DNA of 41,352 nucleotides from Acetobacteraceae bacterium (GTDB taxonomy: Bacteria > Pseudomonadota > Alphaproteobacteria > Acetobacterales > Acetobacteraceae): assembly GCA_027487385.1 (NCBI GenBank), contig JAIYDS010000310.1, positions 1 to 41,352 on the forward strand, read 5' to 3'. Under the pieces are notes generated by a model that made no database searches, was not told where the DNA came from, and saw only the letters and a program-made list of their open reading frames with translations. The position numbers and the translations under genes were made by a program. Shown here one piece after another: positions 13,621-25,735 of the stretch. Each line of letters starts with the position of its first letter. Within the stretch, counting starts at the first letter, position 1.

Positions 13621-15018
13621 ATGGCGAGTGAGCGCGAGGCCGAGCGCGGCAGCCAGTATCGCCACCGCGACACCTCGACGCTGCCGGTGGTGGCCATCCT
13701 CGGCCGGCCCAATGTCGGCAAGTCCTCGTTGTTCAACCGCCTGGTCGGGCGGCGCCTGGCCATCGTGGATGACACGCCGGGCGTGACGCGTGACCGCAAG
13801 GAGGCCGAGACGATGATGGCGGGCCGCAACCTCCTGCTGGTGGACACCGCCGGCCTGGAGGAAGCGGCGCCCGAGACGCTCTTCGGCCGCATGCGCGCGA
13901 GTTCCGAGGCCGCCCTCGAACAGGCCGACGTCGCCGTCTTCGTGGTGGATGCGAAATCCGGCATCACCGCCTCCGACCGTGCCTTCGCCAATTGGCTGCG
14001 CCGCGCGCGGCGGCCCGTCATCCTCGTCGCCAACAAGGCCGAGGGGCGGGGTGGCGCGCAGGCCGCGATGGAGGCCTATGAGCTGGGCCTGGGCGATCCG
14101 ATCGCCGTCTCGGCCGAGCACAATGAGGGCATTGCCGGCCTCATGCAGGCCATCGCCGAGCACCTGCCCGAGGCCGAGCCCGAGCCCTTCGAAGACGACG
14201 CCAAGCTGCTGCGCCTGGCCATCCTGGGCCGCCCCAACGCCGGCAAATCCACCCTGCTCAACACGCTGCTGGGCGAGGAGCGGATGATCACCGGCCCCGA
14301 GCCTGGCCTCACGCGCGATGCCATCGCCGCCGCCTGGCAGGATGAGCATGGCCCGATCCGCATCGTGGACACGGCCGGCATGCGCAAGCGCGCCCGCATC
14401 AACCACCGGCTGGAGGAGATGTCCGTCGCTTCCTCCATCTCGGCGCTGCGCGAGGCGGAGGTGGTGATCCTCGTCCTCGACGCGATGCTGGGGCTGGAGG
14501 AGCAGGATATCCGCATCGCCCGCCTGGCCGAGCGCGAGGGCCGCGCGGTGGTGATCGCGCTGAACAAGTGGGATGCCGTGGAGGACCGCGCGGCCGCCCG
14601 CAACCGGGTCGCGGATACGCTGGAGACCTCACTGAACCAGCTGCGCGGGGTGGAGGTGGTGCCCATCTCAGCCGCCACCGGGGCTGGCGTGGAGAACCTC
14701 ATGCCCGCGGTGCGCCGGACGCATGAGCGCTGGAATCGCCGCATCGGCACCGGCGCGCTGAACCGCTGGTTCGCCACCATGCTGGAGCGGCACCAGCTGC
14801 CCCTGGTGGATGGCAAGCGGCTGAAGCTGCGTTACGCCACCATGCCGAAGGCCCGCCCGCCCACCATCGTCATCTTCGGCACGCGGGCCGAGCAGCTGCC
14901 GCTGGACTACCAGCGCTACCTGTTCAACGGCTTCCGCGAGGAATTCGACATGCCGGGCGTGCCGATCCGGCTGCAGCTGCGCGGGACGGAAAACCCCTAC
15001 GCGGAAGAGGCGGACTAG
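13621..15018 (+). CDS. der: Ribosome assembly GTPase Der (EngA)
   Basis: A 465-residue protein with two tandem GTPase domains and a C-terminal KH-like domain, needed for 50S subunit maturation. Domain 1: GRPNVGKSS, DTAGLEE and NKAE. Domain 2: GRPNAGKST, DTAGMRKRARI and NKWD. The KH-like end contains LPLVDGKRLKLRYAT and PLDYQRYLFNGFREEF. The N terminus carries about 22 residues before the usual start of the first domain (LPVVAILGRPN), and the ATG at 13621 has no ribosome site. Instead, GAGGAG lies before an ATG at 13605 that reads only eight codons and stops inside the der start region, suggesting coupling. Its TAG stop lies inside the inverted-repeat element at 15015. Confidence 0.95.
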   Translation: MASEREAERGSQYRHRDTSTLPVVAILGRPNVGKSSLFNRLVGRRLAIVDDTPGVTRDRKEAETMMAGRNLLLVDTAGLEEAAPETLFGRMRASSEAALEQADVAVFVVDAKSGITASDRAFANWLRRARRPVILVANKAEGRGGAQAAMEAYELGLGDPIAVSAEHNEGIAGLMQAIAEHLPEAEPEPFEDDAKLLRLAILGRPNAGKSTLLNTLLGEERMITGPEPGLTRDAIAAAWQDEHGPIRIVDTAGMRKRARINHRLEEMSVASSISALREAEVVILVLDAMLGLEEQDIRIARLAEREGRAVVIALNKWDAVEDRAAARNRVADTLETSLNQLRGVEVVPISAATGAGVENLMPAVRRTHERWNRRIGTGALNRWFATMLERHQLPLVDGKRLKLRYATMPKARPPTIVIFGTRAEQLPLDYQRYLFNGFREEFDMPGVPIRLQLRGTENPYAEEAD

Positions 15019-15118
15019 AGCGTGCTGCGTTCACATGCGTTCACTCCGCACGCTCTAGACTTTGCTGAGAGGATGATTCAGCGTCTCGGCGATTCCGCCT
15101 TAACGCATCATGCTCTAG
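15015..15118. repeat. About 104-bp element with terminal inverted repeats (MITE-like)
   Basis: The left end (15015-15032, CTAGAGCGTGCTGCGTTC) and the reverse complement of the right end (15101-15118) agree at 15 of 18 positions. The left part also forms a perfect 10-bp inverted repeat (15015-15024 with 15049-15058) and contains a tandem TGCGTTCAC repeat (15027-15035 and 15037-15045). The right part has the small hairpin GCTGA/TCAGC. The left CTAG supplies the der stop codon. No coding potential is seen. This resembles small non-autonomous mobile or palindromic intergenic elements; it may also act as the der terminator. Confidence 0.6.
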
Positions 15119-16344: not shown

Positions 16345-16418
16345 TGGGGGATAGTTTAACGGTAGAACTTCCGACTCTGACTCGGACAGTCTTGGTTCGA
16401 ATCCAGGTCCCCCAGCCA
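16345..16418 (+). tRNA. tRNA-Gln (anticodon CTG), CCA encoded
   Basis: A full cloverleaf can be drawn: acceptor TGGGGGA with TCCCCCA, D arm AGTTTAACGGTAGAACT, anticodon stem TCCGA/TCGGA around loop CTCTGAC with anticodon CTG (reads CAG), T arm CTTGG-TTCGAAT-CCAGG, discriminator G and an encoded CCA. It reads the glutamine codon CAG, the dominant one in GC-rich genomes. It lies in the gap between the Ppx/GppA gene and the Crp-type regulator, both on the other strand. The following 209 bases to 16627 show nothing else I can name. Confidence 0.96.
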
Positions 16419-16627: not shown

Positions 16628-17314
16628 CTATTCGCAGGCCGCCGAGAGCGCCAGGGCGTCGAGGATCACCACCTGGCCGCGGTCCACCGCCAGCACGCGG
16701 GCCTGGCGCCATTCCGCCAGCTGCTTGTTCACCGCCTCCCGCGTGCCGGCCACCATGGCGGCGATCTCGGCCTGAGAGAGGCGCATGGGCACCAGCACGC
16801 CATCCTCCAGCGGCCGCCCATAGTCGCGGGCCAGCTTCAGGAAGAGATGCGCGAGGCGCGAGGACAGGCGCTGCGTCGCCACCCGCTCCAGCCCCAGGCT
16901 GGTGTCGCGCAGCCGCTCGCAAAGCACGCCGATCAGCGCCTGCGCCAGGCTGGGATGCCGTGCCAGCATCCGCTGGCAATGCTCGCGCGGCAGCAGCAGC
17001 AGGCGGCAGGTGGAGACGGCCAGGACATCGGCCGTGCGCGGGCCGCCATCCAGCATCGCCACCTCGCCCACCGGCTGGACCGGCGCGATCATGCGAAAGG
17101 TCAGTTCCCGCCCGGCGAGCGACATGACCGAGACCCGCAACTGCCCTTGCAGCAGGATGAGGAGCGGCCCCGCGGGATCGCCCTGGCGCATGAGCTGGTG
17201 GCCCGCCATCACCTCGATCAGCCGCCCCCCGGCCAGGAAGGCGCAGCGCGGCCCCGCGGGCACCGCGCGCAGGAAGGGGATGTCCGGCCAGGCATGGGGC
17301 AGGGGCTCCGACAC
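16628..17314 (-). CDS. Crp/Fnr family transcriptional regulator
   Basis: A 228-residue regulator with an N-terminal cyclic-nucleotide-binding barrel (GRLIEVMAGHQLMRQGDPAGPLLILLQG... VGEVAMLDGGPRTADV) and a C-terminal winged helix. The phosphate-binding cassette keeps the GE and R-T positions that bind cAMP in CRP, and no FNR-type cysteine cluster is seen, so cyclic nucleotide is the likely effector. The recognition helix reads AGTREAVNKQL, with the RExVxK pattern that reads TGTGA half-sites. The GTG at 17314 has AAGGAAGG upstream. It is divergent from the oxoamine-synthase-like gene, and a perfect TGTGA-N6-TCACA site lies between them, so auto-regulation plus control of the neighbour is likely. 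Confidence 0.9.
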   Translation of the reverse strand: MSEPLPHAWPDIPFLRAVPAGPRCAFLAGGRLIEVMAGHQLMRQGDPAGPLLILLQGQLRVSVMSLAGRELTFRMIAPVQPVGEVAMLDGGPRTADVLAVSTCRLLLLPREHCQRMLARHPSLAQALIGVLCERLRDTSLGLERVATQRLSSRLAHLFLKLARDYGRPLEDGVLVPMRLSQAEIAAMVAGTREAVNKQLAEWRQARVLAVDRGQVVILDALALSAACE

Positions 17315-17409: not shown

Positions 17410-17425
17410 TGTGAAGTGCTTCACA
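17410..17425. promoter_or_regulatory. Perfect Crp-type operator TGTGA-N6-TCACA
   Basis: The 16 bases form a 7-2-7 perfect palindrome (TGTGAAG, TG, CTTCACA) identical to the half-sites of the E. coli CRP consensus. It is the only such site I see between the Crp/Fnr gene (start 17314) and the divergent PLP-fold gene (start 17482), about 57 bp from the latter and 96 bp from the former. The regulator's RExVxK recognition helix fits this site. Confidence 0.75.
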
Positions 17426-17481: not shown

Positions 17482-18773
17482 ATGGAGTGCGCCGAACGGC
17501 AGAAGCCACCGCGGCCTGAGGCGGCGGCCTTCGACACGATTCCCGCCGGGGCGCTGCACGCGACCGCGCGCGACGTCCTGGGCCAGGGCGGGTCGGACCT
17601 GCTGGCGCGCTGGGAGGCGCACCAGAGCTGGTGGGAGGCCCGGCGCCGGCACGGAATGGCGCCGGAGCAAGGCGCCCGCCCAGGCGATCTGGACTTCGTC
17701 GCGCGGGATCACCTGAACCTCGCCGCGCATCCTGCCGTGGTGGCGGCCGCGCGGCTGGCGATGGAGCGCTTCGGCCTGGGGGGCCCGGCCGGCCGTGACG
17801 GGACCGACCCCGTGGCGGAACTGGAGCAGCGTGTGGCGCGCTTCCTCGCCTATGCCGATGGCATCCTGTTCCCGACCGGCCCGGCCGCGCAGCACGCGGC
17901 CCTCACCGCGCTGGCCGGCCCGGGGGACCACATCCTGCTGGACGAGGCGGTCACGGCGGGTTTGCGCGCCGGCGCCGCGCTCAGCGGTGCCGCGATCCAT
18001 GAGATCCCCCATCTCTCCAACGAGACGGCGCTGCACAGGCTCGCCCGGTTGCGCCAGGCCGCGCCCGAGGCCGGCATCCTGGTGGCGACCGAGAGCCTCT
18101 TCGCGATGGACAGCGCCGCGCCCGACATGGCCGGGCTGCATGCGCTGTGCCGGCAATATCGCGCGACGCTCCTGGTGGATGTCACGCAGGATCTCGGAAT
18201 CTTCGGCCCCGATGGGCGGGGGCATCTGGCGGCGCAAGGGATGCTGGGCCTGGCCGACATCGTCACCGGCGGCTTCTGCCAGAGCTTCGCGAGCCCTGGC
18301 GGCTTCGTCGCCGCGCGGACGCCGAGCCTGCGGTTGGGCCTGCGTGCCAGGGGCGCCTTGCCGCTCCAGGCGGCCATCGTGCTTGCCGCCTTCGACTTGG
18401 TCGTCTCCTTCGAAGGCGCCGCGCGGCGGGAGCGGGTGCTGCGCCAGGCGGTGCTGCTGCGTGATGGCCTGCAGGCGGCCGGCTTCACCGTGCTGGGCGA
18501 ACCGAGCCCGATGGTTCCGGTGCTGCTGGGCCCGCCCGCCCTGGCCCGGCTGATGACGCGCCATGCGCGGGAGGGCGGTGCGCGGCTCCAGCTGGTGGAG
18601 CCGCCCGACGTGGCGGCCGGGGCCTGCCGCTGGGTGCTGCAGCTGCGCGCCGATCACACGCCGGCGCAGATGCGGCGCATGGTCGGCATCGCGCGCGAGG
18701 CGCGGGAGATGGCGCTGGCCCATGCGCGGGCCCTGGGCCTCTCGCCGGAGAGCGGCGCGGGGGAGGCCCCGCC

Positions 18774-18792
<19 letters not shown>
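17482..18792 (+). CDS. Alpha-oxoamine synthase-fold protein lacking the PLP lysine (LCB1-like pseudoenzyme?)
   Basis: A 436-residue fold-type I PLP-family protein of the alpha-oxoamine synthase group (serine palmitoyltransferase, KBL, BioF, HemA). The family path is clear: DFVARDHLNLAAHP, RFGLGGPAGRDGTDPVAELEQ, ILFPTGPAAQHAALTAL, VATESLFAMDSAAPDMAGLHALC and SFASPGGFVAA. Three active-site positions are changed. The PLP-stacking His in LLDxxxHAS is T158, the His after the retained Asp (D233, VDxxH) is Q236, and the Schiff-base Lys of TFSKSFAS is Q267 (FCQSFAS). The same Lys is absent from eukaryotic LCB1, the non-catalytic subunit of serine palmitoyltransferase. The frame is full-length with normal codon use, so it is not a decayed gene. 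No catalytic partner is in the window. It is divergent from a Crp-type regulator. Confidence 0.8.
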
Positions 18793-20399
<1,607 letters not shown>

Positions 20400-21724: not shown

Positions 21725-21755
21725 CAGGCGTCACATTTGCTTTGCGCAGGCGTCA
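21725..21755. promoter_or_regulatory. Direct repeat CAGGCGTCA x2 in the Bug/phnC divergent region
   Basis: Two identical 9-mers begin at 21725 and 21747, 22 bp apart (two helical turns), with A/T-rich spacer. Pho boxes use direct repeats (CTGTCAT-like) at an 11-bp period, and GGCGTCA is reminiscent of the GTCA core. The site lies 54 bp before the phnC start. PhoB or another regulator could bind here; this is inference. Confidence 0.4.
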
Positions 21756-21808
21756 TCTCATTGCAACACAGAGCGCCTAAGCCGCGCCCCAGCAGACGGG
21801 GTGTGGTG

Positions 21809-22636
21809 ATGCTCGAGATCGAAGGTCTGACACGGCGCTTTGGCCCTGTGAAGGCGGTGGATGGCGTGAGCCTCGCCATTCCGGCCGGGCAGATGGTGGG
21901 CGTGATCGGTCGCTCCGGCGCCGGGAAGTCCACCTTGCTGCGGCTGATCAACCGCCTGGCCGAGCCCTCCGAGGGGCGCATCCTCTTCGAAGGCCGCGAC
22001 GTGACGGCGCTGCAGGGCCGCGCCCTGCGCGACTGGCGCACGGGCTGCGCCATGATTTTCCAGCAATTCAACCTGGTGCAGCGCCTGGATGTGCTGACCA
22101 ATGTGCTGATCGGCCGGCTGAACCATCGCCATGGGGTGATCGCGCGGCTCGGCTCGCTCTTCTGCCAGTTCTCGGCCGAGGAGCGCGCCATGGCGTTGGC
22201 CGCGCTGGAGCGCTTCGACCTGCTGAGCACGGCGCTGCAACGCGCCGACACGCTTTCGGGCGGGCAGCAGCAACGCGTGGCGATCTGCCGGGCGCTCATG
22301 CAGCAGCCCCGCCTGATCCTGGCCGATGAGCCCATCGCGAGCCTCGACCCGCGCAATGCGCGCACGGTCATGGACGCGCTGGCCCAGGTGAACAGCCGCG
22401 ATGGCATCACGGTCCTGGTCAACCTGCATCACCTGGATACGGCCCGCGAATACTGCAACCGCGTCATCGCCATGCAGCAGGGGCGCATCGTCTTCGATGG
22501 CGCGCCGTCCGAGCTCGATCCCGCGCGCATCACCCAGATCTACGGCATCACCGAGGCGGAGTTCCAGGCGGAAGCCGCCGCCGCGGTGAATGCCAACCCC
22601 GCCTTCGCCGTGGCGCCGCAAGCGGCGCTGGCCTGA
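21809..22636 (+). CDS. phnC: Phosphonate-type ABC transporter ATP-binding protein PhnC
   Basis: A 275-residue nucleotide-binding subunit. Walker [10 protein letters not shown], the Q-loop [24 protein letters not shown] (a PhnC hallmark), signature [17 protein letters not shown], Walker [14 protein letters not shown] and the late [19 protein letters not shown] segment identify PhnC. It is the first gene of phnC-phnD-phnD-phnE-phnE and energises uptake of phosphonate or a related phosphorus compound. The ATG at 21809 begins the usual [11 protein letters not shown]; upstream GTG codons are possible. The C-terminal extension after EAEF is Ala-rich. Confidence 0.93.
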
Positions 22637-22656
22637 CACCACCAAGGAGACTCCGC

Positions 22657-23697
22657 ATGATCAATCGCCGCTATCTCGGCGCGCTGGCGCTTGGCGCCAG
22701 CGCCGTTCCGGGCCTCGCCGCCGCGCAGCGCGCCGCGGCCCCGGCCACCATGGCGCCCGAGGCCGCTGCCGGCCAGCGCATGCGCCGCACGCTCGATGCC
22801 GATGTCACCATGCCCAGCGCCGGCCGCCGCGCCTGGGCCGCGCAGGTGCCGCAGATCCGCATCGGCCTGCTGGGCGGCGAGAACGAGGCCGACCGCATGG
22901 GCCGCTTCGGTGCCTATCAGAACCTGCTGCAGGAGACCTTCCAGGTCGCCGTCCGCCTTTTCGCCGCCAGCGACTATGCCGGCGTGCTCCAGGCCTTCTC
23001 CGCCGGGCAGATCGAGTTCGCCAGCATGGGCCCCTCGGTCTATGCCGGCACCTGGATCGACACCAATGGTGGCGTCGAGCCCCTGCTGGTGGCGGAGGAG
23101 CGCGACGGCTCCATCAGCTACATCGCCGTGATGGTGGTGCGCGCCGATAGCGGCATCACGAATTTCGAGCAGATGCGCGGCCGCAGTCTGGCCTGGGCCG
23201 ATGCCAATTCCACCTCCGGCTATCTGGTGCCGCGCTTCGCGCTGCGCCGGCAGGGCATCGGCGTGGAGAGCGGGCAGTATTTCTCCCGCACCGGCTTCGG
23301 CGGCGGGCATGAGCAGGCGGTGGTCGCCGTGCTGCAGCGGCAATTCGACGCCGCCGTCACCTGGGCCTCGGGCCAGGGCGATGTGAATGAGGGCTTCAGC
23401 CGCGGCAATCTGCGCGCGATGGTGGACAAGGGCATGCTGAACATGCGCGACCTGCGCATCATCTGGCAGAGCGAGCCCATCATCAACGGCCCGATCACCA
23501 TGCGCACCAACCTGCCGCGCGCCTTCCGCGATGACATCGTGAACTTCCACCTGGCGCTGCCGAAGACGCATCCGACGATCTACCAGCAGATCGAGCGCGG
23601 CGGCGGCACGGGCTATCGCGAAGTGACGCATGCGCAGTTCCAGTTCCTGGTGGATATGCGCCGCGAGGAAGCCGCCGAGCGGCGCCGGAGGAGCTAG
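22657..23697 (+). CDS. phnD: Phosphonate-type ABC transporter substrate-binding protein PhnD (copy 1)
   Basis: A 346-residue periplasmic protein with signal peptide INRRYLGALALGASAVPGLAAAQ. After an Ala-rich linker comes the PhnD core: IRIGLLGGENEADRMGRF, LFAASDYAGVLQAFSAGQIEFASMGPSVYAG, VRADSGITNFEQMRGRSLAWADANSTSGYLVP and TGFGGGHEQAVVAVLQRQFDAAVTW. The S-x-S-G-Y-L-VP loop corresponds to the phosphonate/phosphate pocket. The C terminus is Arg/Glu-rich (RREEAAERRRRS). It follows phnC by 20 bp, with AAGGAG upstream. The protein could bind phosphonates, phosphite or phosphate; no C-P lyase or phosphonatase gene is visible to narrow this. Confidence 0.92.
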   Translation: MINRRYLGALALGASAVPGLAAAQRAAAPATMAPEAAAGQRMRRTLDADVTMPSAGRRAWAAQVPQIRIGLLGGENEADRMGRFGAYQNLLQETFQVAVRLFAASDYAGVLQAFSAGQIEFASMGPSVYAGTWIDTNGGVEPLLVAEERDGSISYIAVMVVRADSGITNFEQMRGRSLAWADANSTSGYLVPRFALRRQGIGVESGQYFSRTGFGGGHEQAVVAVLQRQFDAAVTWASGQGDVNEGFSRGNLRAMVDKGMLNMRDLRIIWQSEPIINGPITMRTNLPRAFRDDIVNFHLALPKTHPTIYQQIERGGGTGYREVTHAQFQFLVDMRREEAAERRRRS

Positions 23698-23702
23698 TAC
23701 CG

Positions 23703-23760
23703 CCCTCAGACGCCGGGGGAATTTTTCGGCCCTCAGACGCCGGGCGGCGGCTCCGCCGCC
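23703..23760. repeat. Direct repeat plus hairpin between the two phnD copies
   Basis: CCCTCAGACGCCGGG occurs at 23703-23717 and again at 23730-23744, separated by a spacer with a T-run (ATTTTTC). It is followed by an 8-bp hairpin GGCGGCGG/CCGCCGCC at 23743-23760. The 152-bp gap is the only large one in the phn operon. It may attenuate downstream genes or stabilise upstream mRNA, as intercistronic hairpins often do after binding-protein genes. Confidence 0.5.
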
Positions 23761-23849
23761 TTGGCTTCGCGCCGCGGCGCGGAGCAGCGGCGGTGAGGTC
23801 GGTTTGGGCGCGCCGGCCGTCTTGCGGCCGGCTCCTGGAAAGGTGTGTG

Positions 23850-24860
23850 ATGATCACGTCTGCTCTGGCCCGTCGCGCCGTGCTCGGTGGCGCTGTGGCT
23901 CTCCCCCTCGCCGCGCGGGCCCAGCCCGCGCCCGAATGGCGCCCGCGCCGCACGGCGGATGGCACCCATGCCATGCCCGAGCCCGGCCGCCGCGCCTGGG
24001 CTGAGCAGGTGCCCGTCATCCGCGTGGGCCTGATGGGCGGCGAGAACGAGGCGGATCGCCTGGGCCGCTTCGACGGGCTGCGCCGCCTGCTGGAGGAGAC
24101 CTTCCGCGTGCCGGTGCGCCTGATGCCCGCCAGCGACTATGCGGGCGTCATGCAGGCGCTCTCCGCCCGGCAGATCGAATTTGCAGGGCTCGGTCCCTCC
24201 ATCTACGCCGCCGCCTGGATTGATACGAATGGCGGCATCGAGCCCATCCTCACCACCGAGCAGGTGGATGGCTCCACCAGCTACATTTCCGTCATGCTGG
24301 TGCGCGCCGATAGCGGCATCACCAACCTGGAGCAGATGCGCGGCCGCAGCCTGGCCTGGGCCGATCCGAACTCCGCCTCGGGCTACCTGATCCCGCGCTT
24401 CGAGCTGCGCCGCGCGGGCGTGGGCGTGGAGCCCGGGCAATTCTTCGGCCGCACCGGCTTCGGCGGCGGGCATGAGCAGGCGGTCATCGCCATGCTGCAA
24501 CGGCAGTATGACGCGGCGATGACCTGGGCCTCCGGCATGGGCGACATCAACGAGGGCTTCACCCGCGGCAATACGCGCGCGATGGTCGAGAAGGGCATGC
24601 TGCGCATGTCCGATGTGCGGATCATCTGGCAGTCCCGCCCCATCCAGAATGGTCCGCTCGCCATGCGCACCGACCTGCCGGCGGAATTCCGCGAGGACAT
24701 CATCCGCTTCTATTTGGCGCTGCCGCGCGCCAATCCCGCCGTCTTCGAGCAGATCGCCCGCGGCACCGGCGCGGGCTTCCGCGAGGTGCGGCACGCCGAT
24801 TACGAGGTCTTCGTGGAAATGCGCCGCGAAGAGGCCGCCGCGCGGCGGAGGCGTTCGTGA
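23850..24860 (+). CDS. phnD: Phosphonate-type ABC transporter substrate-binding protein PhnD (copy 2)
   Basis: A 336-residue paralogue of the preceding gene with its own signal peptide (MITSALARRAVLGGAVALPLAARAQ). It shares long blocks with copy 1: MGGENEADRLGRF, RADSGITNLEQMRGRSLAWAD, TGFGGGHEQAV, a WASGxGDxNEGF segment and the Arg-rich end. It differs around the pocket (NSASGYLIP versus NSTSGYLVP) and in surface residues, so a related but distinct ligand is possible. The ATG at 23850 has GGAAAGG upstream; GTG at 23847 is an alternative. Its TGA overlaps the start of phnE. The pair probably arose by tandem duplication. Confidence 0.92.
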   Translation: MITSALARRAVLGGAVALPLAARAQPAPEWRPRRTADGTHAMPEPGRRAWAEQVPVIRVGLMGGENEADRLGRFDGLRRLLEETFRVPVRLMPASDYAGVMQALSARQIEFAGLGPSIYAAAWIDTNGGIEPILTTEQVDGSTSYISVMLVRADSGITNLEQMRGRSLAWADPNSASGYLIPRFELRRAGVGVEPGQFFGRTGFGGGHEQAVIAMLQRQYDAAMTWASGMGDINEGFTRGNTRAMVEKGMLRMSDVRIIWQSRPIQNGPLAMRTDLPAEFREDIIRFYLALPRANPAVFEQIARGTGAGFREVRHADYEVFVEMRREEAAARRRRS

Positions 24861-25735
24861 TGGCCTCGCCCGGGGTCGCGATCCAGGAGGCCGCCTTCCT
24901 CGAACTGCGCCGCCAGCGGCGCGTGACGACGCTGATCGGCCTCGCCATCCTCGCTGCATGCCTGCTGCTGGCCGCCTGGACGAGCGAATTCTACCCCAGC
25001 TCGCTCGCCGCCGGCGTGCCGCGCATCGGCGAGTATTTCGCCCGCATCACGCCCTCGCTGGAATGGGACAAGCTGTTTGCCAGCGTGGACACCGAGGGCA
25101 GCCTGGCCTTCTGGTTCTACCGCCTGGATGCCTGGGCCATCCTGCTCTTCGAGACGGCGCAGATGGCGGCACTCGCCACGCTGGCCGGCGCCGGGGTGGC
25201 GCTGCTGCTGGCCTTCCCGGCCGCGAAGAACACCGGCGCGCCGGCCTGGGCCTACCAGGCCGCGCGCCGCTTCCTGGAAGCGACCCGCACCGTGCCGGAG
25301 ATCGTCTTCGCGCTGATCTTCGTCTGGGCCTTCGGCGTGGGCGCGCTGGCCGGCATCCTCGCCATCGCGCTGCACACGGCGGGCGCACTCGGCAAGCTTT
25401 TCGCGGATGCCATGGAGAATGTGGAGATGCGCCCCTGGGATGGCGTGCGCGCCTCGGGCGGCACCTGGTCCGAGGCCTGCCGCTTCGCCGTGCTGCCCGC
25501 GGCCCTGCCGGACCTGCTGAGCTACGCCATGCTGCGCTTCGAGATCAATCTGCGCTCGGCCAGCGTCATCGGCTTCGTCGGCGCCGGCGGCATCGGCGAG
25601 GAGCTCTACAAGGTGATCTCCTTCAACTACTACGAGGAGATCAGCGCGATCCTGCTGCTCATCATCCTCTCCGTCATGGTGATCGACATGGTCTCTGAGA
25701 AGCTGCGCCGCCGCGTGATCGAGGCCGTGGCATGA
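24860..25735 (+). CDS. phnE: Phosphonate-type ABC transporter permease PhnE (copy 1)
   Basis: A 291-residue inner-membrane permease. It has one N-terminal helix (about 22-42, TLIGLAILAACLLLAAW), a periplasmic loop and a further helix bundle including MAALATLAGAGVALLLAFPA, and the BPD_transp_1 coupling loop ENVEMRPWDGVRASGGTWSEACRFAVLPAALP (EAA motif). It ends with ASVIGFVGAGGIGEELY, a PhnE signature. The ATG at 24860 overlaps the phnD stop (TGATG); the GTG at 24857 is equally in frame. The gene ends in an ATGA overlap with the second phnE, so the two permeases are made in equal amounts and probably form a heterodimer. Confidence 0.92.
   Translation: MASPGVAIQEAAFLELRRQRRVTTLIGLAILAACLLLAAWTSEFYPSSLAAGVPRIGEYFARITPSLEWDKLFASVDTEGSLAFWFYRLDAWAILLFETAQMAALATLAGAGVALLLAFPAAKNTGAPAWAYQAARRFLEATRTVPEIVFALIFVWAFGVGALAGILAIALHTAGALGKLFADAMENVEMRPWDGVRASGGTWSEACRFAVLPAALPDLLSYAMLRFEINLRSASVIGFVGAGGIGEELYKVISFNYYEEISAILLLIILSVMVIDMVSEKLRRRVIEAVA

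Follow-up and report, generated by a model that had tools for sequence, protein, structure and literature searches.

A bacterial member of the α-oxoamine synthase fold that lacks the catalytic residues and adjoins a gene for a Crp-type regulator

A divergent gene pair in two species

The window (the whole stretch of DNA that was analyzed, 41,352 nucleotides from an Acetobacteraceae bacterium, genome G000) contains a gene for an α-oxoamine synthase (AOS) homologue, P0001, the frame of which is unbroken and begins with ATG (Table 1). Its nearest orthologue, L016, aligns from its own residue 1 and was the only close one found among 21 genomes of the genus, the own one included; it is encoded on contig C356 of genome G304 and is 66% identical to P0001. 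The gene order, a Crp-type regulator, the AOS homologue and an acyl-CoA ligase, is common to G000 and G304. The GTG start of the regulator gene (at 17314) was chosen from the sequence, and the regulator is 83% identical in G304. When the stretch comprising the regulator gene and the AOS homologue was searched for in the other 20 genomes of the genus (E 1e-30; 14 candidates scored per genome), only G304 matched.

The intergenic region shared by the pair carries a perfect palindrome of the form TGTGA-N6-TCACA, which we take to be the Crp-type consensus. This pattern was observed once in the window, with 0 matches expected, and the palindrome is kept in G304 within an otherwise diverged spacer. 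The exact 18-mer is present in one copy each in G000 and G304 and absent from the other 19 genomes of the genus. According to the original prediction, the AOS homologue would be controlled by its own Crp-type regulator; co-inheritance of the divergent pair, together with the conserved perfect box, makes such control probable, as judged from the sequence.

Just left of the two-gene unit lies a tRNA-Gln gene (ctg; window positions 16345–16418), a possible insertion landmark. A dispersed repeat of ∼100 bp (15015–15117) recurs in many copies, about 90–99% identical, in G000, G303 and G309, and a short repeat of G304 (L026:2679–2735) has matches, in either orientation, in many contigs of G000. The region 21737–25735, named from its sequence appearance, likely encodes an ABC transporter of the phosphonate type, including two PhnD-like binding proteins in tandem.

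Table 1. Positions, within the window, of the gene pair, its shared palindrome, the altered sites and the neighboring ligase gene.
Feature	Position	Strand	Details
Crp/Fnr-family regulator, divergent from the AOS homologue	16628..17314	-	Pfam cNMP_binding (60.4 bits) and HTH_Crp_2 (49.9 bits), both above cut-off
Perfect palindrome TGTGA-AGTGCT-TCACA, shared intergenic region	17410..17425	+	56 bp before the AOS start
AOS homologue without catalytic residues (P0001)	17482..18792	+	436 aa; T158, D233, Q236, Q267, V at the SPT Arg390 equivalent
What remains of the GVHSAGS-type loop, shorter and altered in sequence, codons 98–106	17773..17799	+	Alignments
Thr for the PLP-stacking His, codon 158	17953..17955	+	phmmer and family alignment
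Gln for His, codon 236 (DVTQD for DVAHD)	18187..18189	+	phmmer and family alignment
Gln for the Schiff-base Lys, codon 267 (GGFCQSFAS for GSFSKTFAS)	18280..18282	+	phmmer and family alignment
Convergent acyl-CoA ligase	18774..20399	-	Matched in 21/21 genus genomes (partly in G312); outside the two-gene unit

Fold and missing catalytic residues

A full-length fold-type I architecture of P0001 was found with Pfam (Aminotran_1_2, 77.3 bits), AlphaFold and Foldseek alike. The predicted structure was of the AOS fold (pLDDT 90.5, pTM 0.88), the input being P0001 and 46 relatives taken from 80 fetched loci; the model was built on an alignment of Lys-keeping homologues, which biases it towards their fold. 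With this model, Foldseek returned KBL as the top match (1fc4, E 3e-31), SPT (2jg2) at E 2.2e-29, and also BioF, ALAS, CqsA and chains of the human SPT complex. In sequence, the nearest solved relatives were Sphingomonas SPT, followed by KBL and BioF. The predicted fold resembles that of the homodimeric bacterial SPT, KBL and BioF (23–30% identity in the Foldseek alignments), but the catalytic Lys, His, His and Arg of these enzymes are lost in P0001.

None of the family models assigned P0001 to a known enzyme. Scores against the SPT models were 138.6, 123.8 and 116.9 bits, the cut-offs being 500, 640 and 670, respectively, and even the best NCBIfam model, bioF, gave 170.6 bits at a cut-off of 426, P0001 remaining far below every NCBIfam cut-off. 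These scores, together with its placement in a separate AOS family, rule out that P0001 is a serine palmitoyltransferase, and the earlier label "serine-palmitoyltransferase-like" was too specific, that separate family being linked to signaling genes. Identity with the autoinducer synthases CqsA/LqsA was likewise rejected, because P0001 scored 62 bits with model NF005526 (cut-off 428; 166 bits for the family member L029) and has no adjacent membrane sensor kinase. By sequence, P0001 is a member of an AOS family that is distinct from SPT and without previous characterization.

When P0001 was aligned with Sphingomonas SPT (2jgt and 2jg2) using phmmer, the PLP-stacking His was matched by T158, the retained Asp by D233, the His after it by Q236 and the Schiff-base Lys by Q267, precisely as originally read from the sequence. 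In SpSPT, these sites are numbered His159, Asp231, His234 and Lys265 (PMC6148460). Two changes go beyond the earlier reading: the equivalent of SPT Arg390 is V, and the GVHSAGS and TFSNALSP loops, near-invariant in the family, are deleted or rewritten. A different lysine might have taken the Schiff-base position, but K8, outside the fold, is the only lysine of P0001, which rules out a substitute; an internal aldimine is therefore not possible in the fold. L016 has K7 and K69. Lysine scarcity as such is ordinary in this DNA (TctC has none, BamB one). The Schiff-base Lys and the two His that mark a catalytic AOS are thus all replaced in P0001, and from the missing residues it is close to certain that the protein performs no lysine-based PLP chemistry. 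Predicted fold and missing residues together bear out the earlier view of a non-catalytic AOS fold.

The loss stands out within the family. An alignment of 88 rows was made from six references and 82 ORF pieces from 80 loci (three of which duplicate references), these loci being the best 80 of 316 relatives found in a scan with a six-row profile; scan patterns and ranking by similarity to a Lys-keeping member favor Lys-keeping sequences. In the Lys column, 85 rows have K, P0001 has Q, L016 has R and one L047 piece has a gap. Among the 88 rows, the three catalytic columns were altered solely in P0001 and L016, except for one gap per column from two L047 pieces. Invariant columns (105, at least 95% conserved in 81 Lys-keeping rows) were then divided into active-site columns, which we chose by known motifs, and others. 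Retention was lower in the active-site columns than in the others for P0001 (20/42 versus 47/63; p=0.007), L016 (19/42 versus 47/63; p=0.004) and a further Lys-less member, L126 (22/42 versus 48/63; p 0.019).

A regulator-linked family and a second lysine-less member

The family to which P0001 belongs (L029, L040–L119) is large, stems mostly from Alphaproteobacteria and is 37–49% identical to P0001. These direct kin have a similar N-terminal extension; unlike P0001, they keep the Lys and both His, and most of them have HK, RR, GGDEF-EAL, LuxR-like or BTAD-TPR neighbors (for example at L095:2574–7344), whereas that of P0001 is of the Crp type. A gene of one of these five kinds (frames overlapping the AOS itself omitted) was present within 1.5 kb at 61 of 79 family loci compared with one of 32 other AOS loci, a contrast that is inflated because the profiles were built from family neighbors, the loci are related and the controls all come from the window's bacterial family. 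Within 3 kb of the window gene, no HK or RR profile match was found, its neighbors being the Crp-type regulator and the acyl-CoA ligase, and no neighbor homologous to this Crp-type protein was detected at the other AOS-family loci examined.

Ten N-terminal sensor domains of the linked kinases and GGDEF-EAL proteins could be aligned with a mean column identity of 50%. This shared membrane domain (MFLISH..GP..G) gave no Pfam match above cut-off in the scanned proteins; six membrane-length helices were predicted in one linked sensor domain, and no solved relative of the linked-kinase sensor domain was detected by Foldseek (best E 0.5). In many of the active relatives, the AOS gene lies near a membrane-domain sensor kinase, a layout like that of the α-hydroxyketone systems CqsA/CqsS and LqsA/LqsS; the latter is encoded in the cluster lqsA-lqsR-hdeD-lqsS (PMC5289986). 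In contrast to CqsA and LqsA, P0001 and L029 remain below the cut-off of NF005526, and the window gene has no adjacent kinase. By analogy, the Lys-keeping members are perhaps signal synthases, and the family together with its neighboring kinases and regulators is a candidate signaling system.

When 397 genomes of the bacterial family were searched with a profile, six, the own one included, contained a match at E 1e-90 or better. One of these matches is L126 (genome G424; L149:6931–10471), in which Ala replaces the Lys and Cys the Asp, while the Arg and the two His are retained. L126 has no close orthologue; its gene adjoins a divergent TPR/BTAD-type regulator that shares 42% identity with the regulators next to the Lys-keeping genes in G020 and G015. 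Genomes of the class (385) and order (395) yielded, at E 1e-45, another five members from beyond the bacterial family, each of them with the Lys and both His, and no further Lys-less member; four or five candidates were scored per genome in the family, class and order searches and the groups were sampled, so that absences are absences from those samples. A scan of genome contigs with P0001 alone as the query gave no match. The origin of P0001, L016 and L126 in one clade was rejected (AU test, p 0.0048), with p only indicative because the group was defined once a quick tree had already been made; on this indicative value, the lysine of L126 would have been lost independently of that of P0001 and L016. 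The quick tree (84 rows) was made without six rows, namely three that repeat references (L040, L056 and L064), both L047 pieces and the second L057 gene, and a later tree contained 22 of the 84.

Possible functions and evolution of the non-catalytic homologue

The missing residues recall eukaryotic SPT1/LCB1 (SPTLC1), and the original prediction had accordingly suggested an LCB1-type scaffold. Like SPT1 with SPT2, P0001 would then pair with a catalytic AOS paralogue and shape or control the active site at the dimer interface. SPT1 is reported to have the AOS fold without the equivalents of Lys265, His159, His234 and Arg390 of SpSPT, which is nearly the set lost here; Asp231, reported missing in SPT1, is however present as D233, and the heterodimeric arrangement of SPT1 is said to have no counterpart in other members of the AOS family (PMC6148460). 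P0001 differs from SPT1 further in being bacterial, in belonging to another AOS family and in being paired with a Crp-type regulator. A potential partner does exist in G304: a paralogue on contig C331 with the Lys and both His intact is 51% identical to P0001, and the P0001/L016 pair is placed beside it in the tree, albeit weakly (87/86). The search for such a partner failed, however, in the G000 assembly, where the AOS other than P0001 are a 5-aminolevulinate synthase and one distant, unassigned AOS. Both assemblies are drafts, 88.75% (G000; 6.7% contamination) and 97% (G304; 7% contamination) complete, so that G000 may lack a partner only as assembled. The 2.7-kb stretch of G304 with the paralogue and a LuxR-like gene (so labeled because it resembles L055, a GerE match, although no Pfam model matched the protein of G304) is absent at the G000 site, and the DNA comparison placed both of its flanks, abutting, on one contig (C3:18249–18251). 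Nor was a Lys-keeping family paralogue of L126 found in the assembly of G424. The suggestion of a scaffold thus gains from the active paralogue of G304 and loses from the empty site in the G000 draft and the result for G424; an SPT1-like subunit, conceivable in G304, appears on the whole unlikely.

Rather improbable is simple decay, that is, a useless product and a frame that merely happens to be still unbroken. Such decay would fit the rewritten loops, the patchy occurrence (2/21 genus genomes), the long stem branch of P0001 and L016 (1.12 in the 22-row tree, 1.69 in the 84-row quick tree) and the rate of the gene, which is the fastest evolving of the eight compared. Between G000 and G304, ω (NG86) was 0.457 for the AOS gene (bootstrap 0.36–0.56), 0.234 for the Crp-type regulator gene, 0.149 for the ligase gene and 0.064–0.151 for five transporter genes. 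With the GY94 model and F3x4 codon frequencies, used to allow for the strong GC bias, the values were 0.144, 0.096, 0.064 and 0.031–0.056, respectively, ω of the AOS gene being 1.5–4.6 times that of its seven neighbors. Constraint on the AOS gene is weaker than on the neighbors, but ω=1 was nevertheless rejected (2ΔlnL 139.8, GY94), which disfavors neutral decay, as far as an estimate from one species pair, with a single close orthologue, can tell. Differences are half as frequent at second codon positions (0.184) as at third ones (0.367), the frames are open in both species, gaps in the protein alignment are whole codons, and the palindrome is kept where the spacer has diverged.

The comparison with L016 also places the loss in time. 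This orthologue reads N, Q and R at the family His, His and Lys, and the Arg390 equivalent is absent in both species. The loss expected from the earlier reading is thus common to the orthologues, but the exact residue set is not. Of the lost invariant columns, eight have the same replacement in P0001 and L016, including His236 to Gln, 25 have different ones and 11 are lost in one protein only. Because the same new letter occurs at eight columns, the loss of catalysis is probably older than the divergence of the two species, the fold having been kept since; because 25 columns differ and only eight agree, part of the change is lineage specific, and the Lys column (Q versus R) could have changed after the split.

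The old pocket might instead host a new chemistry, PMP-type or cofactor-free, that needs no lysine; both species do retain the TG motif and D233, the residue expected to touch the PLP ring. Such chemistry is nonetheless very improbable, as the stacking His, the second His, the carboxylate Arg and the cofactor loops are gone and most replacements differ between the species (T/N, Q/R), unlike what a conserved new active site would show. A misread or misassembled lysine codon, conceivable in a draft such as G000, is refuted, as is a mutation of a single strain, because the changes affect several separate catalytic positions and loops at once and the separately assembled G304 orthologue, with R in place of the lysine, has the same losses.

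The best explanation, to which we assign a probability of roughly 0.6, is that P0001 is a functional, non-catalytic pseudoenzyme under Crp-type control; that it is functional follows from the purifying selection computed for the one species pair. The fold, the residue loss in both species, this selection, the co-inheritance with the Crp-type gene and the conserved box were computed, and a mechanism compatible with them may be sketched as follows. An AOS of a regulator-linked, perhaps signal-making, family would have given up its PLP chemistry on the branch ancestral to two Roseococcus-type species, the protein being retained thereafter in a non-catalytic role. The regulator would bind the palindrome and set the level of the pseudoenzyme, which would form a dimer of the AOS type with no covalently attached PLP and bind, in its remodeled pocket, a small ligand or an acyl thioester, or else another protein. 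In G000, it would act alone and would not be a necessary component of a catalytic synthase. P0001 would thus probably work by binding rather than by catalysis. More speculative, and doubtful at present, is the wider notion that a widespread alphaproteobacterial AOS signaling family repeatedly yields dead synthases that stay beside a regulator, the pseudo-synthase being a sensor or decoy that binds the signal or an acyl precursor and feeds the regulator.

Within the accessible parts of the open-access PMC literature (PMC4821796 included), no description was found of this AOS family or of any bacterial AOS pseudoenzyme. If the sensor or decoy reading were true, the cell would respond to a signal that it no longer makes itself. 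A bacterial AOS pseudoenzyme under purifying selection, and a further, independent case of lysine loss, would point to reuse of the fold for non-catalytic work outside sphingolipid synthesis, and the large synthase family beside kinases and regulators represents a testable candidate for a signaling system.
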